Shown here piece after piece: positions 47-40,808 of a stretch of 58,205 nucleotides of DNA (position 1 is the first letter of the stretch; each line of letters opens with the position of its first letter). The DNA is from Promethearchaeota archaeon (GTDB taxonomy: Archaea > Asgardarchaeota > Lokiarchaeia > Sigyniarchaeales > SOKP01). Below the pieces are notes generated by a model. That model saw only the letters and a program-made list of their open reading frames with translations, was not told the DNA's origin and made no database searches. The stretch spans positions 1-58,205 of the forward strand of contig JAFGOA010000171.1 in the NCBI GenBank assembly GCA_016926735.1, read 5' to 3'. The position numbers and the translations under genes are program-made.

Positions 47-781
47 ATGACTGAAATTAAACAGAACGCTATAGAATTAAATGATATTTCAAAATCCTAC
101 ATTACTGGTGAGATTAAAGTTATAGCTCTGGACAATATAAAATTAATTGTAAAAACAGGTGAAAAACTTGCTGTATTAGGGCCTTCTGGCTCTGGAAAAA
201 CTACGCTTCTTAACCTTCTTGGAGGAATTACAAATCCTGATTTGGAGAAAGGAAAACTTAGAATATTTCATGAGGAGATACAGAATTATAAATTAAAAGA
301 GTTAAATAATTATAGAAAAACTCGAATTGGATTTATATTTCAATTTTTTAATCTTTTTCCAACATTAACAGCTTTAGAAAATGTTATAATAGGATGTGAA
401 CTCCTCTTAGAGAAGAGAGAAAATTCAATTAATATTTATAAAATTGCAAAAGAATATCTGGAAAAGGTTGGTTTGGGGAAGAGATTAAATCATTATCCTT
501 CCCAACTTAGTGGCGGAGAACAACAAAGAGTCGCAATAGCAAGAGCTTTAGTAAAAATTCCTTTTATTGGTAAAAATTTTCTTCTTTTATTAGATGAACC
601 TACAGGAAATTTAGATTCAAATACAAGTAAGAAAATAATAACACTTATAGGAGATTTAAATGAAAAAGAAGGGATAACATGTATATTAGTAACTCATGAT
701 GAACCCTTGGCAAAACTTTTTGCTTCAAGAATTGTTCATTTGGAAAATGGTAAAATTATCAATGATAATGGTGATCTTTAA
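47..781 (+). CDS. ABC transporter ATP-binding protein, MacB/LolD/FtsE type
   Basis: Predicted ATPase that drives the adjacent FtsX-like permease at the inner face of the membrane. Seen: Walker A GPSGSGKT at residues 45-52, Q-loop near 98-100, signature LSGGEQQR at 154-161 and Walker B plus D-loop LLLLDEPTGNLD at 179-190, all intact. The 244-residue length is normal for this family, which typically moves lipids, lipoproteins, peptides or drugs, or acts mechanically on envelope proteins. The stop codon touches the TTG start of the permease, so the two form one translation-coupled unit. The substrate cannot be told from sequence. Confidence 0.93.
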   Translation: MTEIKQNAIELNDISKSYITGEIKVIALDNIKLIVKTGEKLAVLGPSGSGKTTLLNLLGGITNPDLEKGKLRIFHEEIQNYKLKELNNYRKTRIGFIFQFFNLFPTLTALENVIIGCELLLEKRENSINIYKIAKEYLEKVGLGKRLNHYPSQLSGGEQQRVAIARALVKIPFIGKNFLLLLDEPTGNLDSNTSKKIITLIGDLNEKEGITCILVTHDEPLAKLFASRIVHLENGKIINDNGDL

Positions 782-3283
782 TTGGATTTTTTATTAAAAA
801 AAGCATATCGAGATTTTAATAAATTAGGTTGGCGCAAATATCTAATTTTAGGTGTTATATCTTTATGCATTGGAGGAAGTCTTGCTATTAATTATACAAT
901 CTCCGCAAGTTTGCCCATGATAGACTCATATTTTAACAGTGCTAATCATGCAGACTATACTTATCAATTTAATGATAATTCTTGGATTAATTCGTCTCAG
1001 TTTAATGAAATTAAAAATATTCCTGAAATAGATAAATGTACTGGACGACTTATATGGTCTACTTCAATAAAATTAGCAGGACAACAAGATTGGAAGTATG
1101 TTTTATTAATTGGATTAAATAGTACTATTGATTCTCCAGAGGTTTATAAATATTTTATCAGATCAGGAGAAAATTTTAATCAAGGAAGTAATAACTTAAG
1201 TGCAGTAATAGACAATAGCTTTTTTGAAAAAAATCAGTTAGAATTAAATCAAATCTTAAATATTACTAGTTTAAATAATGCTTCTGTTCAGATTACGGGC
1301 ACGTTTAATTCACCAGAATTTTTACTTCCCGTAAGTAATCCAGAATTTATTCTACCCCTTGAAGGTTCAATGGGAATTATTTATTTACCTCAGAAAACAT
1401 TAAAAACCTATATCATTGATCATTATACATATTTGAACAATACAACTCCAGTTAATTATGATTCTCAAATCCTTTATCTCAATCTAATAGACTATAACAA
1501 TATTGCTTTAACATTTAAAGAAGATATTTCTTTAAAAAATGGAGATATAGCAGTCCAAGATTATATCAAAAATAATATGGGACTTGATATTTATGAAGCT
1601 AAGAATTTCTATGAATCGTTTCCATATAGTTATATAAAAGCTGATTTAGGCGAATCTAGTGAATTCATGTGGATTATTCAGATTTTTATTGCATTAACAG
1701 GTATTTTAGTTATATATGTTGTTTTTAATCGATATACGCATACACAAAAACAACAAACAGGCATTCTTGAAGCTTTAGGCTATTCAAAAAAGCAAATATA
1801 TCAATATTATTCAATTATTATGATAATTATTTATTCTATTTCCATACCAATTGGAATTATGATAGGATTTTCAATTGGATATATAATGATAAATGTATTG
1901 CTAACTGAAATGGCGAATATGCATTTTTTTGAATTTGGATTTCTTTTTTTACCAGAAGTTATGTACATAGGACTAATAACTGGAGGATTAATAATATTTT
2001 TAAGTGTATATCTTCCTGTGAGGAAAATTGCTAAAAAAGATACAAGTAAACTTATTTATCAAAAACTTGAACTTAAATATAAGAAAAAACAAAAAATACG
2101 ATTTAATAGAAATAATATTAAGAAAATTTCACAAAAATTACCTTTTAAAAATGCATTTAGGAATAAAAAAAGAATAGTATTCTCATTATTAGCAATTACA
2201 TTCTCACTATTAATTGTAACATCCACTCAATGTATGTTAGATAGTATGTTCTCAAATATCGATACTACATTTAATAACCCAAATGCTTCAGGGAATCCAC
2301 CTGTTGAGAATTGGGATTTGAATGTTCAATTTCAAGACAGTGTTAATAAATCATATTTTGATTCATTAGTTGATAAAATAGAGAATATTATAGGCATTCA
2401 AAATTCATTGGTATATACAAAAGGGATAGGAATAGCTGAAGGAAAAGAAAATAGGTCATTACTTATAATAGGGATGGATCTGAATAATAGCAATATTCAT
2501 AATTTTAAATGGAAAACTAAAATAAGAGAAGATATATACCCATTAGCAGATAATGAAATCATAATTTCTTCTGTCGAAGCTACTAAATTAGGTAAAAATA
2601 TAGGAGATATATTGATAATAAGAAATAGTACAGATCAAATTACATCATTAGAAATTGTAGGAATTCATAGAGATTTAACACTTATCACTTATATTTCAGA
2701 AACATTAGGTAAAATATTATTTCATTCCTCAATAAATCTAGTTGATGGAATATATTTGTCATTAGATTCAGGAGCAGATAAAGAAAATGTAAAAGAACAA
2801 ATTTATAACTTAGGGAATATAGAAGTTATTTTTGATTCTGAAGAAATGGGTAAAGCAAGCACAGATTATATTGAAAATTTTTTCTCAGTTTTCTATGTTC
2901 TTATCTATTATACTTTAGCTGTTGTCTTAATTATTCTAATATATAATTCTATAATGAATATTTATGATAAAAATTATGAATTTGGAATTTTACGATCTCT
3001 TGGATATTCAAAACGAAATATAGGAAAAATGATTTTTATTGAAAATTTAATACAAACTACAATCCCAATTATATTGACATTGATTTTTACCTATCCATTG
3101 TCATTTGAACTGATGTCTATTTATGAATCAAATTTTCCTTTGGATGTAAGTTTTGGACCATTGACTATTATATTTGCAATTATCCCCGCCTTACTAATGA
3201 GTATTTTAGGCTCTTTTATAGCCTTAAGAGTAGTATATAAGAAAACCCTTTATGAACAAGTACAAACAAGCTACGTAGGATAA
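782..3283 (+). CDS. FtsX-like ABC permease (MacB family)
   Basis: Membrane partner of the preceding ATPase. The 833 residues fit the duplicated FtsX layout: an N-terminal helix near 20-40, a large extracytoplasmic domain, three helices around 290-415, then a second helix-domain-three-helix unit from about 465 to the C terminus. Both units carry the cytoplasmic EALGYS or RSLGYS signature that follows the first core helix of FtsX domains. The start is TTG directly after the TAA of the ATPase gene, with GGTG at 771-774 inside the last ATPase codons as ribosome-binding site. Cargo is unknown. Confidence 0.9.
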   Translation: MDFLLKKAYRDFNKLGWRKYLILGVISLCIGGSLAINYTISASLPMIDSYFNSANHADYTYQFNDNSWINSSQFNEIKNIPEIDKCTGRLIWSTSIKLAGQQDWKYVLLIGLNSTIDSPEVYKYFIRSGENFNQGSNNLSAVIDNSFFEKNQLELNQILNITSLNNASVQITGTFNSPEFLLPVSNPEFILPLEGSMGIIYLPQKTLKTYIIDHYTYLNNTTPVNYDSQILYLNLIDYNNIALTFKEDISLKNGDIAVQDYIKNNMGLDIYEAKNFYESFPYSYIKADLGESSEFMWIIQIFIALTGILVIYVVFNRYTHTQKQQTGILEALGYSKKQIYQYYSIIMIIIYSISIPIGIMIGFSIGYIMINVLLTEMANMHFFEFGFLFLPEVMYIGLITGGLIIFLSVYLPVRKIAKKDTSKLIYQKLELKYKKKQKIRFNRNNIKKISQKLPFKNAFRNKKRIVFSLLAITFSLLIVTSTQCMLDSMFSNIDTTFNNPNASGNPPVENWDLNVQFQDSVNKSYFDSLVDKIENIIGIQNSLVYTKGIGIAEGKENRSLLIIGMDLNNSNIHNFKWKTKIREDIYPLADNEIIISSVEATKLGKNIGDILIIRNSTDQITSLEIVGIHRDLTLITYISETLGKILFHSSINLVDGIYLSLDSGADKENVKEQIYNLGNIEVIFDSEEMGKASTDYIENFFSVFYVLIYYTLAVVLIILIYNSIMNIYDKNYEFGILRSLGYSKRNIGKMIFIENLIQTTIPIILTLIFTYPLSFELMSIYESNFPLDVSFGPLTIIFAIIPALLMSILGSFIALRVVYKKTLYEQVQTSYVG

Positions 3284-3339
3284 TTAATTTCAATATATAT
3301 GAATCTACCTAAAATTTTTGTTCTTTAGAGTGTAATAGA

Positions 3340-3362
3340 TTCATATTCTCTTTTTTTTTTTG
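3340..3362 (+). terminator. T-rich tract after the ABC operon
   Basis: A run of eleven T bases preceded by CTC follows the permease gene, with no convincing hairpin. Archaeal RNA polymerase commonly terminates at such U-tracts, so this is a plausible terminator for the operon. The rest of the 3284-3574 gap is featureless A/T. Confidence 0.35.
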
Positions 3363-3574
3363 ATATAAAATTAGATTTTATAGAATTTAATTATTATCTA
3401 TACTGTTTTTGTATTCCTTAAATAGAAAAGTTAATAATTAGAATATATTTTGGAATTTTATTATCAATTTTCAATAAAATATTTTAAATCTTAAATAATT
3501 TTATTTAAAACTATTCTGTAAAACAATTAATAAAAAATAAGATAAAAATTTATGATTATAATGTTCGAAATATC

Positions 3575-4639
3575 TTAACATTTAAGATGAGCAGGTATTT
3601 TCTTCATAATATTTTTTATATTGTCTGTAATAAATAAATTACCTATTAATGTTTTTAATTCATCAAAATTTTCATTTATTTTAATTTTGTCACTTAAAAC
3701 GGATAATCTAGCAAGAGATTCTTTTATATCAATTGGAAGTGGTGAAGCATCTGAAGTACCAAATGCATTAACAAGAGAACTCATAATTTTATCATAATCC
3801 ATTTTAGAAATTTTATTATCGAGCATATTTATTACAGTATGATGTAATATCTTTTGAAATTCTAATTCAGAATGTATATAGTGCATTTTTGTACTAATTT
3901 GTTGATACATATTTATTAATTTTGGATGCATAATTTTATCACTCACTTGAAGAATATAATCGGAATTATTCTCCATTCTGTTAATATTTGACTTTATTTT
4001 TTTATATAGGTTAAACCAGTCATCTGAATTTAAATTATCTTTCTTATAAATGTCTATTAATTTGATGATATCATCATAAATCAATGCTATTTCTTTATCA
4101 AGTAAAATTTTCTCCGTGACAAAAGCTCCACTAAGTCCTAATGTCATCATTTGGATTTTTCCAATTTGTAATCTAGACATCATTTTATATTTTAAAATTG
4201 GAGGAATGCTTTTAAATCCTAAATTTTCTCCGCAATTAATACATGGACCAATATTAGCTAGTAATTCAAAATTATCTTTTCCACATGTGTGAATTTCTGG
4301 AATTTTTTCATTAAATAATCTTTTAAATCCACATTCATAGCATTCCCAGCAATCACAATTAACACATAAAAAAAATTTTGTTTCTATTTTAGATTTTCCA
4401 CATACAGCACATTTTTCATATGTTGTCACTTGTTTTGAATCAAATTCATCAAGTGCATCTATTTTAGATTCATCAAAAACACCAATCCGATAATTTTTAT
4501 TATTACCTTGAGGATTAAGTGTTGCAAGATCTTTATATCCTTTATTTTTTAATTTTTGAACTATTTTATTTGCTTGTTCTTGAGTATTTGCTGTTTTTAA
4601 TATTTTAATCCAAGGCTCTATTGGTAACATAAATATCAT
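3575..4639 (-). CDS. SPOR-like plus multi-cysteine zinc-finger protein
   Basis: I do not recognise this 354-residue protein as a whole. Residues about 9-55 look like a SPOR-type alpha/beta repeat (a WIKILKTA strand, an amphipathic helix, then a short strand), a fold that often binds glycan strands. Residues 77-136 hold many cysteines (77, 80, 92, 95, 97, 100, 103, 119, 133, 136) in CxxC pairs and should bind two or more zinc ions, in a RING- or B-box-like arrangement. The remaining 200 residues look helical. A second ATG lies three codons inside (MLPIEP) and could be the start. No membrane segment is obvious. Confidence 0.7.
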   Translation of the reverse strand: MIFMLPIEPWIKILKTANTQEQANKIVQKLKNKGYKDLATLNPQGNNKNYRIGVFDESKIDALDEFDSKQVTTYEKCAVCGKSKIETKFFLCVNCDCWECYECGFKRLFNEKIPEIHTCGKDNFELLANIGPCINCGENLGFKSIPPILKYKMMSRLQIGKIQMMTLGLSGAFVTEKILLDKEIALIYDDIIKLIDIYKKDNLNSDDWFNLYKKIKSNINRMENNSDYILQVSDKIMHPKLINMYQQISTKMHYIHSELEFQKILHHTVINMLDNKISKMDYDKIMSSLVNAFGTSDASPLPIDIKESLARLSVLSDKIKINENFDELKTLIGNLFITDNIKNIMKKIPAHLKC

Positions 4640-4877
4640 ATTTAATTTTGTGTTATAAATTTTAAGGTATATTTTTTTGACTAAAAAAAATTATATCAGG
4701 ATAAAAATAAGTAATAAACTTTGGAATTTTATTATTAAAATTCAAAAAAATTTTGTATAAATAATTTAAAGGTTATATGAAAATGATATCAACTAAGATT
4801 GTAAAAATCTCGTTGTTGCTATAAAAATTATACCTTAAAACTTATATAAAGATATTTAACTATTCTAAATAGCAAAA

Positions 4878-7184
4878 ATGAAAAAATCAAAATCAATTCT
4901 ATTTCTTCTTTTTTTATTTAATATTATTTTTTTATCCTCAAATATAAGCATACTTAATTATTCAAATAATCGAAATATTTCAATATCGATGATAAATCTT
5001 CCTGATAATAATCCAAATAAGAATTGGAATAATGGATCAAGTAATTCTCCCGATATTGTTATAGATAATAATAATGAAATACATATGGTTTGGTCTGATA
5101 ATACAGAGGGCATTTGGGGTGATGATTATGAAATTATGTATGAAAAGATTGAAGATCAATCCAGTGGGAAAAACACAAGAATTATCTCCGATGGATATCA
5201 AGGAGGGTATTTCAATTGGGGTAATAGTTCCGCTCCTGAAATAGAAATAGATCATAATGGTAAATTTCATGTAGTTTGGATGGATAATTCTGAAGGAATA
5301 TGGACCAATGGACCTTATGATTATGAAATTATGTATGCATCATCTGAAGATGGTATTTTATGGTCAAATGCTACAGTTATTTCAGATGGATTCAATGGAA
5401 TATATTGGAATAATGATGGCAGTTTAAGTCCAGATATTGCTATAGACTCTAATAATAAGATCCATGTAGTATGGAATGATTGGACGGAAGGTCCATGGGG
5501 TACTGATTCTGAAATAATGTATGCATCGTCTTCAGATGGAGTCACATGGTCAAATATTACTATAACATCTGACGGATTTAATGGAACCTATTGGAACAAT
5601 GGATTGAGTTCACAACCATCAATAGTTATCGATAATTCTGATATGATTCATATTGTATGGGATGATGATACACATGGAATATGGGGAGATGATTATGAAA
5701 TTATGTATGCATCATCTGAAGATGGTATTTTATGGTCAAATGCTACAGTTATATCTGATGATGAGACTTATTGGAATAATGGAAATAGTATAAATCCAGC
5801 TATAACCACAGATGTTAATGAAAATATTCATGTAGTATGGCAAGATAATACTGAGGGGGTATGGGATACTGATTCTAAAATAATGTATTGTAGTTTCATA
5901 CAAAGTATAGGATGGTCAAATGCTACTGTGATATCAGATGGATATGGGGGATATTATTGGAATAATGGTACTAGTGAATATCCTTCGATAGCTATTGATG
6001 AGTATAATATAATACATGTAGTATGGTCTGATGATACTGATGGAATATGGGGAAATGATAAAGAAATCATGTATACATCATCTTTAAATGGAGTCACATG
6101 GTTAAATGCTACAGTTATTTCAGAGGAATTTAATAGTGTTTATTGGAATAATGGTGATAGTAAAAATCCCTCGATTGCTATTGATGATTCTAATATGATA
6201 CATGTAGTTTGGTCTGATGATACTGATGGAAAATGGGGAAATGATAAAGAAATCATGTATACATCATCTTTAGAGGGTATAATTTGGTCTAATATTAGTA
6301 TTTTATCTGATCAGCTTGTTTCTATTAATACTCAAGCAATTTATGAATTATATTTTATATTTAATTTAATCATTTCCTTGATACTTCTTGGATGTATATT
6401 TATTCTATCTTTGCTAAAAAAGTTATCAAGAAAAAACAATAAGTCGATTTATTACACAGAAATTCTCGATATTTCCTCTATTCTTATTTCAAGTACACTA
6501 GCAATACCACAAATTTATCAAATCAATTATAATTCATCTATAATCTTTGATAAAACACCAATAGATCTCTTTATTTTTTTATTTCCTTATATTATACTCT
6601 TATTATCTATTATAATAATACTGATTTCTATAATCTCATTAGTTATTTCATTAGATGAATATTATTCTTATATTAGAAGAAAGACTAATCAATATAAAAA
6701 ACATCCAAAACTGAATTTTGATGATATTTTTAAAAATAAAAATAGAGAGAAAATAATTAAGCTGATTCTATCAGAACCAGGAATTCATCATAATGATTTA
6801 CGCAGACGATGTGATTTATATCCTAATCAAATAAATTGGCATTTAAATATCTTATTAGAATATGGTATAATTAAAAAGGATAAAATAAATAATTATACAA
6901 TTTTCTATCCAAATATTCAAGAAGTATCTTCAAAAATAATAACAAAAAAATTAATTAAATCTAAAACCACCCTTGATATACTAAATTTGATTGAAGAACA
7001 ACCAGGAATAAAACCTTCTTCTTTAGGAAGAGATCTGGAATTAAAAAAAACTACCATCTCCTATCATATCAATAAATTAAAAAGAAAAAATATAATAAAA
7101 ACGATTAGAGAAGGAAGGGAATTAAAATTATTTACTTTGGAAAATTGTTCAAAAAATGAACCACAAATGTTTTTATATGACTAA
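4878..7184 (+). CDS. Membrane-anchored seven-bladed BNR propeller with C-terminal tandem winged-helix domains
   Basis: Probable one-protein transmembrane transcription sensor. Residues 1-25 form a signal sequence. Residues about 45-480 hold seven repeats of 60-66 residues, each with a YWNNG start, an IHVVWxD strand and an Asp-box (SxDGxxWSN), as in sialidase/BNR propellers. Hydrophobic segments follow near 488-512, 529-547 and 561-592. Residues about 621-677 and 696-755 are two winged-helix domains of ArsR/MarR style (LSEPGIHHNDLRRR; EEQPGIKPSSLGRD). This topology puts the propeller outside and the DNA-binding part inside. It lies 57 bp before a paralogous surface protein, its likely partner or target. 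The ligand is unknown. Confidence 0.85.
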   Translation: MKKSKSILFLLFLFNIIFLSSNISILNYSNNRNISISMINLPDNNPNKNWNNGSSNSPDIVIDNNNEIHMVWSDNTEGIWGDDYEIMYEKIEDQSSGKNTRIISDGYQGGYFNWGNSSAPEIEIDHNGKFHVVWMDNSEGIWTNGPYDYEIMYASSEDGILWSNATVISDGFNGIYWNNDGSLSPDIAIDSNNKIHVVWNDWTEGPWGTDSEIMYASSSDGVTWSNITITSDGFNGTYWNNGLSSQPSIVIDNSDMIHIVWDDDTHGIWGDDYEIMYASSEDGILWSNATVISDDETYWNNGNSINPAITTDVNENIHVVWQDNTEGVWDTDSKIMYCSFIQSIGWSNATVISDGYGGYYWNNGTSEYPSIAIDEYNIIHVVWSDDTDGIWGNDKEIMYTSSLNGVTWLNATVISEEFNSVYWNNGDSKNPSIAIDDSNMIHVVWSDDTDGKWGNDKEIMYTSSLEGIIWSNISILSDQLVSINTQAIYELYFIFNLIISLILLGCIFILSLLKKLSRKNNKSIYYTEILDISSILISSTLAIPQIYQINYNSSIIFDKTPIDLFIFLFPYIILLLSIIIILISIISLVISLDEYYSYIRRKTNQYKKHPKLNFDDIFKNKNREKIIKLILSEPGIHHNDLRRRCDLYPNQINWHLNILLEYGIIKKDKINNYTIFYPNIQEVSSKIITKKLIKSKTTLDILNLIEEQPGIKPSSLGRDLELKKTTISYHINKLKRKNIIKTIREGRELKLFTLENCSKNEPQMFLYD

Positions 7185-7241
7185 CTTTGGTTTAATTAAT
7201 AATTTTTGAATTAGTAAAAAAGAAAAAAAGAAATAACAAAA

Positions 7242-9593
7242 ATGAAGAAATCTAAAAACATAATCTATTCTATTATATTGTTAACCATTATTGTAATAAA
7301 TATCATTAATTTAATTGGATTTTGTAATAATTCAATTTCTAATGAAGAAACACAAAATACTTTTGAGAAAAAAATAAGTTCAATTGAAGTTTCTCCCTTT
7401 ACTGTAATATCTGATGGATATTTAGATTTATATTGGAATGAATATGAATGTGAAAATCCATCAATTATAATGGATAGCACAGGTAAATTTCATTCAGTAT
7501 GGGACTGCAGTATATATATTAACGAACAATATCAGCATGAAATATTGTATGCATCTTCTGATGATGGAATTTCATGGTCTAATATTACAATTGTCTCTAA
7601 TGATTATACTAATTGGAACAGTGGATGGAGTGAATACCCAGATATTGCTGTTGATTCTAATGATAAAATTCATATTGTATGGGATGATGATACAGATGGG
7701 GCATGGGGTACTGATTCTGAAATAATGTATGTTTCTAATGATGGTTCAGGATGGTCAAATGCTACTATAATATCAGATGGATATAGTGGATATTATTGGA
7801 ATAATGGTGACAGTGTTGTTCCAAAAATTGTTATAGATTCCAATGATAAAATTCATGTTATATGGCAAGATGATACAGAAGGAATATGGGGTGGTGGATA
7901 TCATACAGACATTGAATTAATGGATGTATCCTCAGTAGATGGATTTACATGGTCAAATGCTACTGTTATTTCAGATGGATATAGTGGATTTTACTGGAAA
8001 ACAGGGATAATTCGTCATTATGCAATTACATTAGATAATAATAATAATAATATCTATGTTATATGGACTCATTCAGATAGCATAGGTGATTCAACAACTA
8101 CGGATATGTTTGTAACTTATAAGGAGAGTATTGGATGGTCAAATGTAACTCTATTATCTACTGTGGGTATTCAAACATCTTATAGTAGAATTTCTAATCC
8201 CGATATTGTAGCGGATAATGAGGGAATTATTCATATAGTAACAAATCAATTTTCTGGTGGTAACAATCTATTATGTTATATCTCTTATTCAGAAGCACAA
8301 GGATGGAGTGACCCTAAGGTAATTCCAACGGATTTACACGATCCATGGTCTTATGATGATCTTCATATTAAACAATCAATAGATGTTGATTCTTATGGGA
8401 CAATACATATTGTTTATGTAGATGTATATTTACAAATATCTGGTGGCCATACTAGCAGATATGTTAATTATCTTGCTTATAATAATAATTCTGGTCTTCT
8501 TGAAAATGAGGCAGTATCAAATTCTTTTTTTGATATGAATGATGCATATCTTGATCCATCTATTGAGGTCAATTCAGATGGTTCTGCATATGTTGTATGG
8601 ATTGATCCTACGATTGGTCCTTGGACTGGTCAATATAATGAAAAAGAAGTATTTTTTTCTTCAATATATCACAACCCCAATTTGGATAATCCTGAAGATA
8701 TAACATATGAACAAGATATGACAGGGTATTCAATAACTTGGACTCCTACAGGTGTTAATCCACATAATTATACTATTAAAAATGGAGAAAATATTATTCA
8801 ATCAGGTAATTGGACTAATGATATTCCTATTGATATTGATGTTGACGGATTAAGTTATGGTTTATATACATATACAATTAATGTTACAAATAAACAAGGG
8901 AGATATTTTACAGATTCTGTAAATGTAAATGTTTTAGAACCTCTTAACCCAGAAATATCTGAACCTTTAGATCTTACATTTGAAGAAGGTGAAACTGATC
9001 GTTCTATCTTTTGGACAGCAACAGATCTAAATGCAAATAATTATACAATATCAAATAGTACACATTTTATTCAGACAGGAGATTGGACTTCTGGAACCCC
9101 TATTGAATTGAAATTAGGATCAATAAAACAAGGAATACATAATTATGAAATTGAAATTTTTGACAAAGGAAGTCATTCATCAATAGATTCTGTAGTGGTA
9201 GATGTATCACCTCCATTAAAACCTGATTTAACTCAGCCAGAGAATATTACATATGTTCAAAATAGTATAGGTAATAGCATTTCATGGACAGGATTTGACC
9301 TCTTCCCAGATGATTATATAATCACCAGAAATGCATCATATGCAGATAGTGGAAATTGGGATTCAGAACACCCTATTATTCTAGAGATAGATGGGTTACC
9401 TGAAGGATTATATATCTATGAAATATCTATCTATGATAGAGCTAGACATGTAGAGACAAATTCTGTATGGGTCTTAGTTACTCCTGATAATCAAGAAGGA
9501 AAGGGAATATCTCTTGGTTATTCGGCTATAATAATCAGTATAATAAGCATTATTGGAATTGTGTATTATACTAAGAGAAAACTTATTAAATAA
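7242..9593 (+). CDS. Cell-surface BNR propeller protein with three beta-sandwich repeats and a C-terminal anchor
   Basis: Paralogue of the preceding gene in its propeller half, without the DNA-binding part. A signal peptide spans residues 1-26. Seven propeller-like units span about 45-480; the first three are clear (YWNxG, Asp-box SSDDGISW) and the last four are diverged. Three related domains of about 92 residues follow from about 480, 570 and 662, each with an NYTI or DYII strand, a GNW/GDW turn and a YTINV-type last strand, like Ig/PKD-type surface domains. One membrane helix (about 755-776) and a basic tail end the protein, the usual archaeal surface anchor. Probably made together with the upstream sensor. 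Confidence 0.85.
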   Translation: MKKSKNIIYSIILLTIIVINIINLIGFCNNSISNEETQNTFEKKISSIEVSPFTVISDGYLDLYWNEYECENPSIIMDSTGKFHSVWDCSIYINEQYQHEILYASSDDGISWSNITIVSNDYTNWNSGWSEYPDIAVDSNDKIHIVWDDDTDGAWGTDSEIMYVSNDGSGWSNATIISDGYSGYYWNNGDSVVPKIVIDSNDKIHVIWQDDTEGIWGGGYHTDIELMDVSSVDGFTWSNATVISDGYSGFYWKTGIIRHYAITLDNNNNNIYVIWTHSDSIGDSTTTDMFVTYKESIGWSNVTLLSTVGIQTSYSRISNPDIVADNEGIIHIVTNQFSGGNNLLCYISYSEAQGWSDPKVIPTDLHDPWSYDDLHIKQSIDVDSYGTIHIVYVDVYLQISGGHTSRYVNYLAYNNNSGLLENEAVSNSFFDMNDAYLDPSIEVNSDGSAYVVWIDPTIGPWTGQYNEKEVFFSSIYHNPNLDNPEDITYEQDMTGYSITWTPTGVNPHNYTIKNGENIIQSGNWTNDIPIDIDVDGLSYGLYTYTINVTNKQGRYFTDSVNVNVLEPLNPEISEPLDLTFEEGETDRSIFWTATDLNANNYTISNSTHFIQTGDWTSGTPIELKLGSIKQGIHNYEIEIFDKGSHSSIDSVVVDVSPPLKPDLTQPENITYVQNSIGNSISWTGFDLFPDDYIITRNASYADSGNWDSEHPIILEIDGLPEGLYIYEISIYDRARHVETNSVWVLVTPDNQEGKGISLGYSAIIISIISIIGIVYYTKRKLIK

Positions 9594-9901
9594 TTTTTAT
9601 TCTTATTTTTACATTTTAAATATATTAGGGCAATTTTAATTACATTATTAGATTTAATAAGAATTTGAAAAATTATGTTTGAATTTAGATTAGAATTAAT
9701 TTGTATGACTCTCCTTGTATCATTTCTTTGTTTAGTAGTTTCAAATAGTCTGCAAATAGAACTTAAATAAACTAATTTACTTTCTTCAGATAGAATTGGC
9801 AATTCTATGTGATAATAGACTTCTATATTATTTTCCTTATTTTTATGTCTGAGAAAATATCTTTTTAATGCTAAAATTCTATTTTTATCATATATATTCA
9901 A
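9566..9901 (-). CDS. Uncertain 111-residue ORF, possibly a gene fragment
   Basis: The first 65 codons read like real protein (charged, with YYHIELPILSEESKLVY), but the last 45 are basic and low in complexity, and the 3' end overlaps the 3' end of the convergent surface-protein gene by 28 bp. This fits either a small unknown protein or a truncated gene that runs into its neighbour. No domain is recognised and no clear ribosome-binding site precedes the ATG. Confidence 0.3.
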   Translation of the reverse strand: MNIYDKNRILALKRYFLRHKNKENNIEVYYHIELPILSEESKLVYLSSICRLFETTKQRNDTRRVIQINSNLNSNIIFQILIKSNNVIKIALIYLKCKNKNKNYLISFLLV

Positions 9902-10016
9902 TATTTTATGATCTTGGATAATATTTAAAAATTTTTATTAAATTTCAATAATATATTTTGGAAATTTACGAGAAATTGTAACGATTTATGAATAATTTAA
10001 AGGTTGAAAAGTAAAG

Positions 10017-10025
10017 CTTTATATT
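10017..10025 (+). promoter_or_regulatory. TATA-like box of the PadR gene
   Basis: TTTATATTT fits an archaeal TATA element. Transcription would begin about 25 bp downstream, near 10045, within the tandem palindrome at 10041-10071, so a protein bound there should block initiation. Confidence 0.45.
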
Positions 10026-10040
10026 TACGAAAAAATAATA

Positions 10041-10071
10041 TACCAGTGACTGGTAGTTCCAGTGACTGGTA
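10041..10071. promoter_or_regulatory. Tandem palindromic operator, two copies 18 bp apart
   Basis: TACCAGTGACTGGTA at 10041-10055 is an exact inverted repeat with 7-base arms around a central G. Its core CCAGTGACTGG recurs at 10059-10069 inside TTCCAGTGACTGGTA. The 18-bp spacing places two protein dimers nearly on one DNA face. The site lies at the expected transcription start of the PadR gene, so autorepression by that regulator is the simplest reading (inference). Confidence 0.75.
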
Positions 10072-10109
10072 TTTGATATTCAAATAAAATAAATCAAAGT
10101 TGATATAAA

Positions 10110-10700
10110 ATAGTTGAAGAATACACAAAAAGTTATGAAAAAGTAATTAAAAAGAACTTTGCAACAATTTTTATTCTTTCTATTCTCAAAGACGGGGCTT
10201 GTCACGGATACAAAATAAATAATAGAATAAGAAAACGTACATTAGGAATGTGGAATCCAAAAGCATCAAGTTTGTACTGGATTTTAAAAAAACAAAGAGA
10301 AATGGGCTTAATAAAACTCGTATTTCAAAAGAAGAACGAAAGAAATAAAAAAGTATATGAAATTACCGATAAAGGAAAAGAAACATTGAGACGTATGATT
10401 AAAAGTCAAAAAAAAATAAGAATGGCTTACGAAAACTTCTTGAAATTATCATCAGAACATATTTTTCCTTTTGATTCAGAAGATTTAGAATATTTTGATA
10501 ATATATTGAATTATCAAATATTTTCAGATATAATTAAATCAGAAAAGGATAATTCGGAAGCGACTTATAAAAAAAAAATCCATCTTCTAAATCTTCAAAA
10601 AGAAAATATTATGATAGTTCGAGATAGATTGAATAATTATATTGAAAAAATAGATGAAATAACTCAAAAATTTAAACAAGAATCAATGAACTTAAATTAA
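10110..10700 (+). CDS. PadR-family transcriptional regulator, apparent ATA start
   Basis: Winged-helix regulator. The PadR N-terminal domain reads from the F-A-T-I-F-I-L-S-I-L-K-D-G segment through GYKINNRI, the SSLYWILKKQREMGLI recognition region and a KVYEITDKGKE wing; the rest is a helical dimerisation arm. The first in-frame ATG (10248) would cut off half of the HTH, while the frame stays open and PadR-like back to a TGA at 10101. No ATG, GTG or TTG fits in that stretch; ATA at 10110 (then V-E-E-Y-T-K) is the best candidate. It likely controls itself and the following frameshifted gene through the tandem palindrome upstream. The inducer is unknown. Confidence 0.85.
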   Translation: MVEEYTKSYEKVIKKNFATIFILSILKDGACHGYKINNRIRKRTLGMWNPKASSLYWILKKQREMGLIKLVFQKKNERNKKVYEITDKGKETLRRMIKSQKKIRMAYENFLKLSSEHIFPFDSEDLEYFDNILNYQIFSDIIKSEKDNSEATYKKKIHLLNLQKENIMIVRDRLNNYIEKIDEITQKFKQESMNLN

Positions 10701-10741
10701 GAATATCAAGTAGCATAAAAACAAAAAAAAGGTGATCTATT

Positions 10742-11045
10742 ATAGCTAAAAATGAACTCTTTATAACAGTGACTTTTTAAAAGGATATCCCTTAACTATA
10801 AAAAACGAGTTTATGAAATCTTAAACCAATTAAAAATCCCTTTAATAGACGAGAGAGTATATGATAAAGTAAATATAAATATTGGAGATGCTTTGGCAAC
10901 TGTGATTTTTCGATTTGAAGAAGATGAATCTATCATTCAAGGTTTTCTTAGTCTTGCAGAATATTTTCGTACAATTGTTATAAAAAGGAAGGACGAATTT
11001 TTTATTCCTCTTCCTTCAATTTTATTTCGGTTAATTAATACATAG
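10742..11045 (+). pseudogene. PadR-operon partner gene, 100 codons, one-base frameshift
   Basis: The gene begins 41 bp after the PadR gene. GGTG at 10731-10734 is followed after seven bases by ATA, which would read M-A-K-N-E-L-F-I-T-V-T-F. The frame then hits TAA at 10778 in GACTTTTTAAAAGG. Removing one T continues into a second open stretch (K-R-I-S-L-N-Y-K-K-R-V-Y-E-I-L-N-Q-L) that runs to TAG at 11043. The joined protein has about 100 residues, alpha/beta in character, with no recognised family. It is either a recent frameshift, a programmed shift on the T5A4 run, or an assembly indel. Confidence 0.55.
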
Positions 11046-11046
11046 A

Positions 11047-11081
11047 TTTTTTTTTCTATCTTTTTCTTTTTTTTTCTTTAA
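11047..11081 (+). terminator. T-rich terminator tract
   Basis: Several T runs of 5 to 9 bases separated by single A or C bases directly follow the PadR operon. This is typical of archaeal U-tract termination; no stem is needed. Confidence 0.4.
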
Positions 11082-11138
11082 TCAAAATTATAATACCATC
11101 CAAGAAGTATTTTAAAACTATTTTTAGACTCCTTTTTC

Positions 11139-11654
11139 TTACTCTCGTGCTTTTAAATAATTTCTTATAAATTGTACTCTGTCTCTGATATATTTGTGTT
11201 CATGATTTTCACATTTCTTTAGTAAATATTCTGCTTCTTTTTCATCAATAAGATATTCCCAAAGTAATTGATCCAAAACACCTATTCCCCATCCCCTAAC
11301 ATTTTCATCATCTAAAAACTCCTCAATCCATTTAAATGCCATAGGATGAGCAATATGTTTAATAAGCCATACAGCATCCATAGCTCTCTGATCTTTTGAG
11401 GTTTTATATATACTATATGCATACTCCGTAGCAGTTGAAGATTTAATATATCTAAGAATGCTTATTATAACGCCTTCTCCTTCTTTATGCTCCAAATAAT
11501 AATCTACCATTTTCTTAATTTCATTTTTATCTAAAATTAATTCTAAAGCATCTCGTGCAATAAAAGTCCCATCAAATTCATGTGTTTTCTTTCCAGAAGA
11601 ATCATATTTAAGACTTCCTGCTTGAATTCCTAGTTCTTTCCAATTATACTTCAT
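11139..11654 (-). CDS. HEAT-repeat-like helical protein
   Basis: A soluble protein of 171 residues made of paired amphipathic helices, with HEAT-like features such as DAVWLIKHIAHPMAFKWIEEFL and DDENVRGWGIGVLDQLLWEYLID. The N-terminal 30 residues are different (KYDSSGKKTHEFDGTFIARDALE). Such small HEAT proteins are common among bacterial and archaeal immunity-like and scaffold proteins, but no specific role can be assigned. It is divergent from the gene at 11719, with 64 bp of shared promoter space. Confidence 0.65.
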   Translation of the reverse strand: MKYNWKELGIQAGSLKYDSSGKKTHEFDGTFIARDALELILDKNEIKKMVDYYLEHKEGEGVIISILRYIKSSTATEYAYSIYKTSKDQRAMDAVWLIKHIAHPMAFKWIEEFLDDENVRGWGIGVLDQLLWEYLIDEKEAEYLLKKCENHEHKYIRDRVQFIRNYLKARE

Positions 11655-37843: not shown

Positions 37844-40075
37844 TTATAATACTATTCCTCCATCAACAATATCCCAATTATAATTATCTTTAAGATATTG
37901 TCTTGCATCAGCAGCAGCTCCCAAGCTATATTTTGACCCACCAGCAACAAAACGTACGTCAAATTGTAGAGAGGGTAAACTTGCCCATCCTATTAATAAA
38001 CTATCATAATTTACCGTAGATAAAGTGACATATCTAAACATATTATCCATGTTTGAAACACTAGAAATATTCCAACTCCCAATATTTTGATCAAAAGAAG
38101 AAGCTTCTGAGAACATATAACTCATATCGGTAACATAAGAAACACTCCAATTCCCGATATCTTGGTTAAAAGAAGAAGCTTCTGAGAACATATAACTCAT
38201 ATCTGTAACACTAGAAACACTCCAATTCCCGATATCTTGGTTAAAAGAAGAAGCTCCTGAGAACATATGATTCATATCTGTAACATTAGAAACAGTCCAA
38301 TTCCCGATATCTTGGTTAAAATCCCAAGCTTCTGAGAACATATGATTCATATCTGTAACATTGGAAACAGTCCAATTCCCGATATCTTGGTTAAAGTCAT
38401 AAGCAGCAGTGAACATATAACTCATATCTAAAACATTGGAAATATTCCACTTATCGAGAGGTTGATTGAAATAATGAGCCTCTCTGAATAAACTAGCCAT
38501 ATTTGTAACACTAGATACAGTCCAATTTCCAATATCTTGGTCGAAGGAGGTTGCAAAGTAGAACATAGCTTCCATGCTTTCAACATTGGATACATTCCAG
38601 TTTCCGATAGATTGATTGAAGTAAAAAGTATCAGAAAACATATAACTCATATCTATAACATTGGAAACATTCCATTTATCAAGAGGTTGATTGAAATAAT
38701 AAGCCTGATGGAACATATGTCTCATATCTATAACATTGGAAACATTCCATTTATTGATATTTTGATTGAAGGATTGAGCCCTATAGAACATACCGTACAT
38801 AATCTCAACTCCTGAGACATTCCAATCACCAATAGGTTGGTTAAAGTCATAAGCACTAGCGAACATATTACTCATATCGATAACATGGGAAACAGTCCAA
38901 TTTTCGATATTTTGGTTGAAATCACTAGCACCGGCAAATAATCCACTCATATCTCTAACATTGGAAACATCCCATCCACCTATAGATTGATTAAAAGAAG
39001 TAGCTAAATAAAACATACTATTCATGTTTTCAACGCTGGAAACATCCCATTCTCCAATATTTTGGTTGAAATCAGAAGCTCTTTCGAACATATTACTCAT
39101 GTCTGTAACACTGAAAACAGTCCAATTTCCAATATCTTGGTTAAAAGAAAGAGCTAAATTGAACATATTATTCATATCTAAAACATTAGATACATTCCAA
39201 TTTCCTATATCCTCATTAAAGTTATCAGCAGAAAAGAACATATAACTCATATCTGTAACGTTAGAAACATCCCAACTATTCATATTTCCAGAATTACCAA
39301 GAAAATTACATCCTCTAAAGGCTTGATAGAGTGTAGTTGTCCCTGTTAGGTCTAAAGTATCTGTAGCAGTGATATTTAAATTATAACATCCATAGAAATA
39401 GCTACCAGAATTTCCTAATCTTAAATCACCCCATTGTTGAATTTTAAGTAATTTAATCCAATCACCTCCATCATTAAATCTCCATCCAATCAAAGTACCA
39501 TCGATTCTAATCGTGTATACTCCTATTGAAGTATATGTATGAGTTACTTCATCTTGATCCCAGTTTGTAATTGTATCAGCAGTTCCATCGCCCCAAATCA
39601 CTGTAAAATTATAGATTCCACTTGATTCCAATGGTAATTTAACCTGATGCTCATTAGTAGACTCTGTACTTGTCCTATATGTATCCCATATTGAAACAAA
39701 AGATGATCCAGACTCTATTGCATCAACGACGAATGAAACTGATGCTGTCCCAATATTTCCAGCTGAATCATTTGCCCATGCAGTTATAGTATTCAAACCT
39801 TCACTAAATGTAATGGAATGTGGGGACGTATAAGTTACATTCGAGCCATCATTCCATTTATACCAGATAGTATCGATTGCGATATTATCTAACGCTGAAA
39901 TCTCTAATAATTGACTAGCATCATAATAAGTGGTGCTTATAGGACTATTTATTTCTATTGTTGGATTTATTGTATCCTTCTTTTCAATAGGTAAAAGTAG
40001 TACTACACCAATAATAATAGAACTTATAGCAATGATTGATGTTATGAATATTGCTATAATTTTTTTATTAATCAT
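37844..40075 (-). CDS. Large surface protein with 16 DUF285 (BspA-like) repeats
   Basis: A single N-terminal hydrophobic segment (residues 5-30) anchors or exports the protein. An Ig-like domain follows at about 37-118 ([15 protein letters not shown] ... [17 protein letters not shown]), then a PKD-like stretch with [14 protein letters not shown]. From about 265 to 670 run sixteen repeats of 25 residues on the pattern [25 protein letters not shown], typical of DUF285 surface proteins of mycoplasmas and other host-attached microbes. The last repeats are nearly identical at DNA level (38060-38400), so copy number probably varies. Likely adhesion. Confidence 0.92.
38060..39285 (-). repeat. 75-bp tandem repeat array inside the DUF285 gene
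   Basis: Sixteen units of 75 bp in frame encode the 25-residue repeats. Units at 38100-38400 are the most alike, older ones to the right are diverged, which suggests recent expansion at the 3' end of the gene. Confidence 0.85.
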
Positions 40076-40583
40076 TATATTCTAACACCAATATATAATT
40101 TGTTATTAAATTTCAATTTAAATACTAATTATATATTTTTTTTATTTATTAATAATTGTTAAAATTAAATAATTCTTAAAAAAGAATAAGGTATAATTTT
40201 CGCCCTATTTCTTAAAAGGATTGGATAATAGAGACAATTTTTTGTAATATTTTATATTTTATCTAATTAATATCTCTTCAGCTCAAATTCTAACTCAAAC
40301 TATAAAATTGAACTATCTATTTTATGTGAAATTATATGTCTCAGGAGATATTTTTTTTAATTTGGTAAAAATAAACTATCAAAAATAGAAATAATATTAA
40401 AAAAAATGGGTAAATAATATTTGGGTATAATCTATATAAATCAGTTCTTAGGGATTTTACAAATAATATTATATAAAATAGTTCGAAAACTACACCTTAA
40501 ATCTTTATATTTGGATAGATTTTTATCATGTAAAAAATACTCTAAAAAAATAAAACATTATAAAAGAGTTGTTCTAATAAAAT
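40076..40583. other. Intergenic region, 508 bp
   Basis: A/T-rich spacer between divergent genes. I see a TATA-like stretch (TTTATATTTGG, about 40504) for the gene at 40584 and promoter-like A/T for the DUF285 gene near 40090-40150. No supported ORF or repeat. Confidence 0.4.
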
Positions 40584-40808
40584 ATGTCTAATAAACAAAA
40601 TACAAAAAAATCAAAAATGGGAGCTGCAACTAAAATAGGAATTGCGATATCATTAGGAATTTCATTTGGTGCTATTCTCGCAGTTATATTTGGGTTAATT
40701 TTCGACAACATGAGTATTGGTATAATAGTTACAGTATCAATAGGAGTTGCGATTGGTCCATCAATTGGGCTTGTTATAGATCAAAGCAAACAATCTCATC
40801 ATAAGTAA
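40584..40808 (+). CDS. Small glycine-rich two-helix membrane protein
   Basis: 74 residues: a charged start (MSNKQNTKKSK), two hydrophobic helices rich in Gly, Ala and Ile (about 15-38 and 44-64) and a short polar tail with histidines. The even, small-residue pattern (GIAISLGISFGAILAVIFG, then GVAIGPSIGLVI) resembles glycine-zipper small membrane proteins. Function unknown. Confidence 0.65.
   Translation: MSNKQNTKKSKMGAATKIGIAISLGISFGAILAVIFGLIFDNMSIGIIVTVSIGVAIGPSIGLVIDQSKQSHHK

Follow-up and report, generated by a model that had tools for sequence, protein, structure and literature searches.

Bacterial regulators of the ToxR/CadC type carry a cytoplasmic winged helix, a transmembrane (TM) segment, and an outside sensor in one chain; they have one OmpR-type winged helix, one TM segment, and no propeller. 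In Bacteroidetes, HTCS proteins place two seven-bladed propellers outside the cell and connect them across the membrane to a DNA-binding domain; their genes lie beside the surface-protein genes that they control and occur as many paralogues per genome (PMC3243724). The HTCS domains are Reg_prop, YYY, a histidine kinase, a receiver, and a DNA-binding domain of a different type from that described below (PMC3243724). ArnR and ArnR1 of Sulfolobus are membrane-bound one-component regulators that act on surface structures via promoter sites; each has one N-terminal HTH, a HAMP and a membrane-near sensor domain, and two C-terminal TM helices, with no propeller outside the cell (PMC6396743).

The window analyzed here is the whole 58,205-nucleotide contig JAFGOA010000171.1 of a Promethearchaeota archaeon of the Lokiarchaeia (assembly GCA_016926735.1, genome G000). 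A preliminary description, made from the DNA letters, had proposed that the product of one gene in this window combines, in a single chain, a signal peptide, seven propeller units, about three membrane helices, and two winged helices. The open reading frame, Pfam, an AlphaFold model, and fold searches all bear this out (Table 1), and we refer to the protein as the sensor. Its propeller is built from seven repeats of ~62 aa that start with WNNG (W50, 112, 177, 239, 299, 361, and 423). Against the Asp-box consensus S-x-D-x-G-x-T-W, five of the seven repeats carry a degenerate version, S-S-x-x-G-x-x-W; no Pfam BNR model matched the propeller at E 0.1, and NCBIfam gave no match either. The AlphaFold model, made from an eight-row alignment (mean pLDDT 68, blades mostly 70-93, winged helices ~80), has seven blades (56-464), helices at 467-516, 524-553, and 561-607, and two winged helices; when the C-terminal part was modelled alone (pLDDT 79), the arrangement was unchanged. 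Three Pfam matches fall within the last 150 residues, namely PF24266 (58.5 bits versus a curated cut-off of 31, E 6.9e-16, aa 621-679), PF13412 (E 3.6e-16, aa 695-741), and PF01022 (E 2.3e-6), and fold searches liken the winged helices to ArsR/MarR-type domains (Z ~10-11). PADLOC hits (Csa3, CARF) reflect shared winged helices only, and a role in defence was set aside.

The charges near the predicted membrane helices (N-terminus +3, loop 517-531 +1, loop 551-566 -1, segment 600-620 +5) fit a predicted topology with the propeller outside and the winged helices inside. Fold and charges thus agree with the earlier claim that the C-terminal domains are winged helices that lie in the cytoplasm, the propeller being extracellular. 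A sensor or input part and a DNA-binding output are present in one chain; Pfam gave no match to a histidine kinase or receiver, and the model leaves no space between helix 3 and winged helix 1. On this predicted architecture the sensor would be a membrane-bound one-component regulator, and by score it is a member of PF24266. The preliminary description had considered the class undescribed, and we likewise found no account of a propeller-to-tandem-winged-helix protein in the literature searched (subscription papers outside its scope).

Table 1. Coordinates of the sensor gene, its predicted parts and operator sites, and related genes at other loci
Feature	Sequence	Position	Strand	Basis or remark
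Propeller-3TM-tandem winged-helix sensor/regulator, 768 aa	window	4878-7184	+	ORF, Pfam, AlphaFold
Signal peptide or signal anchor, aa 1-25	window	4878-4952	+	hydropathy; model helix 2-21
Seven-bladed propeller, aa 50-480, predicted extracellular	window	5025-6317	+	repeats, model, PDB match
Membrane helix 1, aa 486-517	window	6333-6428	+	hydropathy, model; counterpart of the C-terminal helix in stand-alone propeller proteins
Membrane helix 2, aa 524-553	window	6447-6536	+	models; hydropathy moderate
Membrane helix 3, extends into cytoplasm, aa 561-607	window	6558-6698	+	models
Winged helix 1, aa 621-678, PF24266 HTH_HVO_0163_N	window	6738-6911	+	Pfam, model, fold search
Winged helix 2, aa 685-753, PF13412/PF01022	window	6930-7136	+	Pfam, model, fold search
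Predicted operator and BRE/TATA, TTGTTCAAAAAATGAACCACAAATGTTTTTATA, in 3' end of sensor gene, 65 bp before ATG 7242	window	7145-7177	+	matrix 18.8 bits
Propeller paralogue, 783 aa, anchored in the membrane at its C-terminus, PKD-like domain(s) present; predicted target	window	7242-9593	+	
Weak operator-like site, AAAATTATACCTTAAAACTTATATAA, directly before sensor-gene TATA box	window	4817-4849	+	matrix -8.8, not significant alone
Weak operator-like site before divergent gene 3575-4639	window	4651-4683	-	matrix -13.5, not significant alone
Predicted operator and TATA, best match in window, ~73 bp before 74-aa two-helix ORF 40584-40808	window	40479-40511	+	23.0 bits
ICMT/PEMT-like protein and two-helix regulator operon, operator motif ahead	L046	826-2238		equivalents in g2, g6, g8
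ICMT/PEMT-like protein and two-helix regulator operon, operator motif ahead	L096	5197-6573		equivalents in g2, g6, g8
Beta-helix/PKD fusion	L086 (G013)	3195-6152		
Beta-helix/PKD fusion	L087 (G013)	188-3304		
Beta-helix/PKD fusion	L088 (G013)	3278-7921		
Two-gene form, propeller receptor	L028 (G000:C144)	2841-5382		
Two-gene form	L035 (G000:C153)	8019-11019		
Two-gene form	L094 (G013:C186)	3049-5785		
Two-gene form, longer version	L083 (G054:C11)	6726-11342		

We read the sensor, with a probability of roughly 0.7, as a membrane-spanning one-component regulator that was made by fusion and controls surface- and secreted-protein genes, including the adjacent gene at 7242. Outside the cell, the seven-bladed propeller would bind a surface or environmental ligand, the three membrane helices would relay the signal inward, and the two cytoplasmic winged helices would bind a predicted ~23-bp operator that abuts the BRE/TATA of surface- and secreted-protein genes, 7242 among them. 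The protein would have arisen in one Lokiarchaeal genus, where a propeller with one C-terminal membrane helix was joined to a two-helix tandem winged-helix regulator, two parts that are separate in relatives. What the computation shows is the architecture and its recurrence, independent fusions, the link between motif and regulator operon in other genera, and the motif before surface genes here.

A search for proteins of the same architecture, proposed with the preliminary description, returned nine fused copies in two genomes. Five are in this genome (C222, the locus described here; C41, twice; C158; and C91) and four are in a sister genome of the same genus (G001: C130, C217, C93, and C102); a genome scan with a tight alignment (A3) gave only eight loci. 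Since it recurs five and four times in two genomes, the architecture is neither chance nor an assembly error. None of the other Asgard genomes among the 227 searched (four candidates per genome scored; up to 18 for 58 genomes) held the fused architecture, which is likely absent outside the genus.

The gene downstream of the sensor gene is 46% identical to the sensor propeller over 350 aa and has a signal segment and a C-terminal helix (755-777), as anticipated for a paralogous propeller with a surface anchor. The further idea that a propeller-only paralogue always adjoins did not survive: among eight fused-gene loci, it is true for C222 and C41 only. A broader rule holds, namely that a gene beside the sensor gene nearly always encodes a secreted or surface protein, of one kind or another (9 of 10 loci, two of the ten being without a propeller; chance ~0.001 against a crude background). 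These neighbors encode a propeller-anchor paralogue at C222 and C41, a beta-helix protein at C158, LamG-like proteins at C91 and C102, an alpha/beta hydrolase at C167, and a dockerin/TSP3 protein at C217 of G001.

Several gene arrangements were noted alongside. The protein adjoining the sensor at C217 of G001 (L066 130-4665) is a secreted protein of 1512 aa with a dockerin type I domain and a TSP3 repeat. Upstream of the sensor gene, the window encodes an ordinary MacB/LolCDE-type ABC transporter pair, an ATPase and an FtsX permease (47-3283). Both genomes of the genus encode a core regulator of 420 aa, with one membrane helix, and ahead of it a small, conserved signal-peptide/anchor protein of ~222 aa (L027 4083-6064, L071 2624-4613). 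The end of contig C103 (L026) and the start of C192 (L031) of G000 probably adjoin, which places a regulator divergent from a propeller-anchor gene; the same divergent pair is seen intact in C256 of G001 (L069), 214 bp apart.

By inspection, the string AAAGTRYACCTYAAA is common to the upstream regions of several sensor and surface genes in the genus. A search of 58 related genomes for exact sites gave 18 here and 6 in the sister genome, versus 1 and 1 for reversed controls. In this genome, a signal-peptide or sensor gene lies downstream of the exact sites at 11 of 16 loci (background 9 of 43). A looser motif with one mismatch allowed was genome-wide no commoner than its reversed control, and so only exact or matrix-scored sites were used. 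Palindromic operators in intergenic regions were considered and dropped, the arm lengths lying inside the shuffled range.

In three other genera (g2, g6, and g8), the motif TTGTTCGAAAAGTGCACCTTAAA stands ahead of a TATA box, upstream of the regulator's own operon. This operon encodes an ICMT/PEMT-like four-helix membrane protein followed by the two-helix regulator, and its typical site before the TATA box is TTGTTCGAAAAGTGCACCTTAAAnnTTTATAA. There are 29 exact sites outside the genus, 16 of which lie at most 4 kb upstream of a two-helix tandem winged-helix gene on the same strand, these loci being partly orthologous. The motif before the regulator operon in three genera is a pattern typical of autoregulation, and the two-helix regulator appears, from these sites, to control its own operon. 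The four-helix partner gene was not found in the sensor's genus with a 60-aa query run without a positive control.

A matrix was then built solely from the sites of other genera and run over 248 kb of DNA of the sensor's genus, gathered by protein similarity. It gave 14 matches of at least 10 bits versus none in eight shuffles, a test that is partly circular because the pattern that selected the training sites was first seen in the sensor's genus; the position of the training sites beside a regulator gene is independent of that pattern, as is the site at 7145, which does not match it. Nine of the 14 matches precede genes for sensors, propellers, or secreted proteins, at distances of 51-132 bp. 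For the other five, no ORF that reaches 80 aa lies within 220 bp, though one of them precedes a 74-aa ORF. The two matches that fall in the window are the sites at 7145 and 40479 (Table 1). C41 parallels the locus described here: its second sensor gene has one site at the 3' end, 77 bp before a propeller-anchor gene, and is itself preceded, at 60 bp, by another. As a side observation, secreted proteins with similar N-terminal parts are encoded in the window (37844-40075) and at C69 (L159 2114-4117); the copy at C69 has an exact operator, and the window copy has a weak site at 40175.

An operator-like site 65 bp ahead of ATG 7242 makes the suggestion that the first gene controls the second probably right for the sensor or for one of its paralogues, and the site supports the view that the neighbor is part of a surface-protein regulon under the sensor family. 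At least five paralogues share the output domain, so the site at 7145 may belong to another regulator copy; that the protein encoded at 4878-7184 itself binds there, and that it acts without leaving the membrane, are points that we infer. Its own promoter has a weak site only, which makes this copy at most a candidate for autoregulation; TACCTTAAA occurs only twice in the window, both times in the intergenic region upstream of the sensor gene. Site variants hint at one variant per regulator branch, since C102, C167, and C130 of G001 cluster in the tree (98/92) and all have a GTGTAC variant. EarA of Methanococcus is a winged-helix activator whose site is just upstream of BRE (PMC5512572). By analogy, activation is likelier than repression for the sensor family, because the predicted site is immediately upstream of BRE/TATA, where EarA acts. 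The EarA site and the predicted operator share this position relative to BRE; EarA is soluble, without a sensor part, and has another target.

The same motif could instead be read by a separate, unlinked transcription factor with control over the regulator operon as well as the surface genes, the propeller protein being itself a target and binding other DNA. Such a factor would account for the motif near several genes that have no regulator nearby and for the weak site at the sensor's own promoter. We consider it improbable, however: the concentration of the exact motif outside the genus at the two-helix regulator operon in three genera is the usual sign of autoregulation, and the exact site is present in 17 of 20 genomes of these genera versus 2 of 36 others outside the sensor's genus (the sites being related by descent). 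The motif is nearly absent from the other Lokiarchaeal genera, most of which show only the 420-aa relatives.

Control by the sensor family, the reading that we prefer, comes with a traceable origin for the sensor itself. Its two halves exist separately in other genera, as a protein of ~517 aa with a signal, a seven-bladed propeller, and one C-terminal helix, and as a two-helix regulator of 235-260 aa that carries tandem winged helices; the fused form has three helices, the one of the propeller protein plus the two of the short regulator. In a tree of winged-helix pairs, the fused proteins are not one group, and the starred branches force at least three state changes. Eight fused proteins fall inside the short-regulator clade, and the ninth (L068), which has one membrane helix ahead of its wHTH, falls in the clade of ~420-aa core regulators beside L026 and L069 (support 100/99). 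Because the fused proteins are split between two clades, a propeller was, on this tree, joined to a tandem winged-helix regulator by fusion at least twice, in addition to joining by adjacency.

This history also speaks to whether the protein signals at all. If it did not, the propeller would be an adhesin and the winged helices a chromosome tether or a vestige, a reading that accommodates the existence of stand-alone propeller-TM proteins without winged helices. It is very unlikely, given that residues of the winged helices (W654, H655, L656, Y729, K733, L734, and others) are invariant in all nine fused copies, that fusion occurred at least twice, and that this output also occurs fused to other outer domains.

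The closest solved structure to the sensor propeller is the CylK C-terminal propeller (Z 36), followed by the seven-bladed lectins PLL, PHL, CV39L, and BP39L, which are alike in fold (Z ~30, rmsd 2.4-3.2 over ~310 aligned residues) at 11-14% identity, then by integrin alpha heads (Z ~27) and sugar-cleaving propellers. The propeller is strongly acidic (72 D/E versus 11 K/R) and has a single arginine among the 445 residues at 41-485. Least credible of all is that it serves as an exported sialidase- or lyase-like enzyme rather than a sensor: its top Foldseek matches are sialidases and PL24/glycoside hydrolase propellers, a list compatible with other propeller families, but sialidase chemistry needs three arginines, and structural Z is higher for the non-catalytic PLL-type lectins than for those enzymes. 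With the arginine triad absent, sialidase chemistry is excluded, and assignment to GH33 and similar families was rejected. Given the lectins among the fold neighbors, the exclusion of sialidase chemistry, and the acidic composition of the predicted propeller, a lectin-like ligand is plausible; the propeller has the PLL-type seven-bladed lectin fold, and a shared fold alone shows no function. The glycan sensing that had been suggested for the sensor and its neighbor found no support, and a glycan as the ligand is a guess whose sole basis is fold resemblance.

The sensor is not alone in having the tandem winged-helix output, which is a module widespread among Asgard archaea and combined with interchangeable outer domains. 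First, the same output is fused to right-handed beta-helix (NosD-type) and PKD ectodomains in genome G013 (985, 1038, and 1547 aa). Second, there is a two-gene form, in which the first gene encodes a surface receptor that has a single membrane helix and a tail in the cytoplasm, and the next a soluble tandem winged-helix protein (Table 1). Homology links the receptor tails with the linker of the one-gene beta-helix proteins (clear for C144 and C153, best E 1e-6 to 1e-10; weak elsewhere), and the winged helices of those proteins are matched by the soluble regulators at E 1e-39 to 1e-49. The beta-helix/PKD fusions and two-gene forms make the sensor one member of a modular class. At G054:C11 257000-271000 (L083), giant propeller proteins (open frame 3682 aa) lie beside tandem winged-helix proteins of 730-755 aa, and the latter have an extra C-terminal domain that resembles the receptor tail in C153. 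The HTH_HVO_0163 family (PF24266) occurs in Haloferax, Methanosarcina, and Methanocaldococcus, and no paper on its function was found in the literature searched.

It is an evenly balanced proposal that the Lokiarchaeia possess a general, modular class of surface-to-promoter signalling proteins, with exchangeable receptors (propeller, beta-helix/PKD, and others) in one or two genes, tandem winged helices, branch-specific variants of a BRE-proximal operator, and surface proteins as the controlled genes. At the present locus, a propeller receptor would then directly control an anchored propeller that may bind the same ligand. The sensor and the motif before the neighboring surface-propeller gene form a testable surface-to-gene switch in a Lokiarchaeal member of the Asgard archaea, and the receptor, the predicted operator, and the target list together open Asgard surface-to-gene signalling to tests with a purified domain of 160 residues and a duplex of 33 bp. 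How one-chain membrane regulators are built can be seen from the way in which the same parts have repeatedly fused and split.

Among the described systems, the sensor is like HTCS in connecting an outside propeller to a DNA-binding domain in one chain, beside surface-protein genes and with many paralogues. It is unlike HTCS in having no Reg_prop or YYY match at E 0.1 and no phosphorelay, the propeller connecting to winged helices instead; lacking these domains, a kinase, and a receiver, it was not classed as an HTCS. It resembles ArnR as an archaeal membrane-bound one-component regulator, but assignment to ArnR/ArnR1 was rejected because the order is reversed (propeller, TM, then HTH). The domain order is likewise opposite to that of ToxR/CadC, and the sensor has tandem winged helices, three TM helices, and a propeller. 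Within the HTH_HVO_0163 family, the propeller and three-helix layout was found, among the genomes searched, only in this Lokiarchaeal genus.
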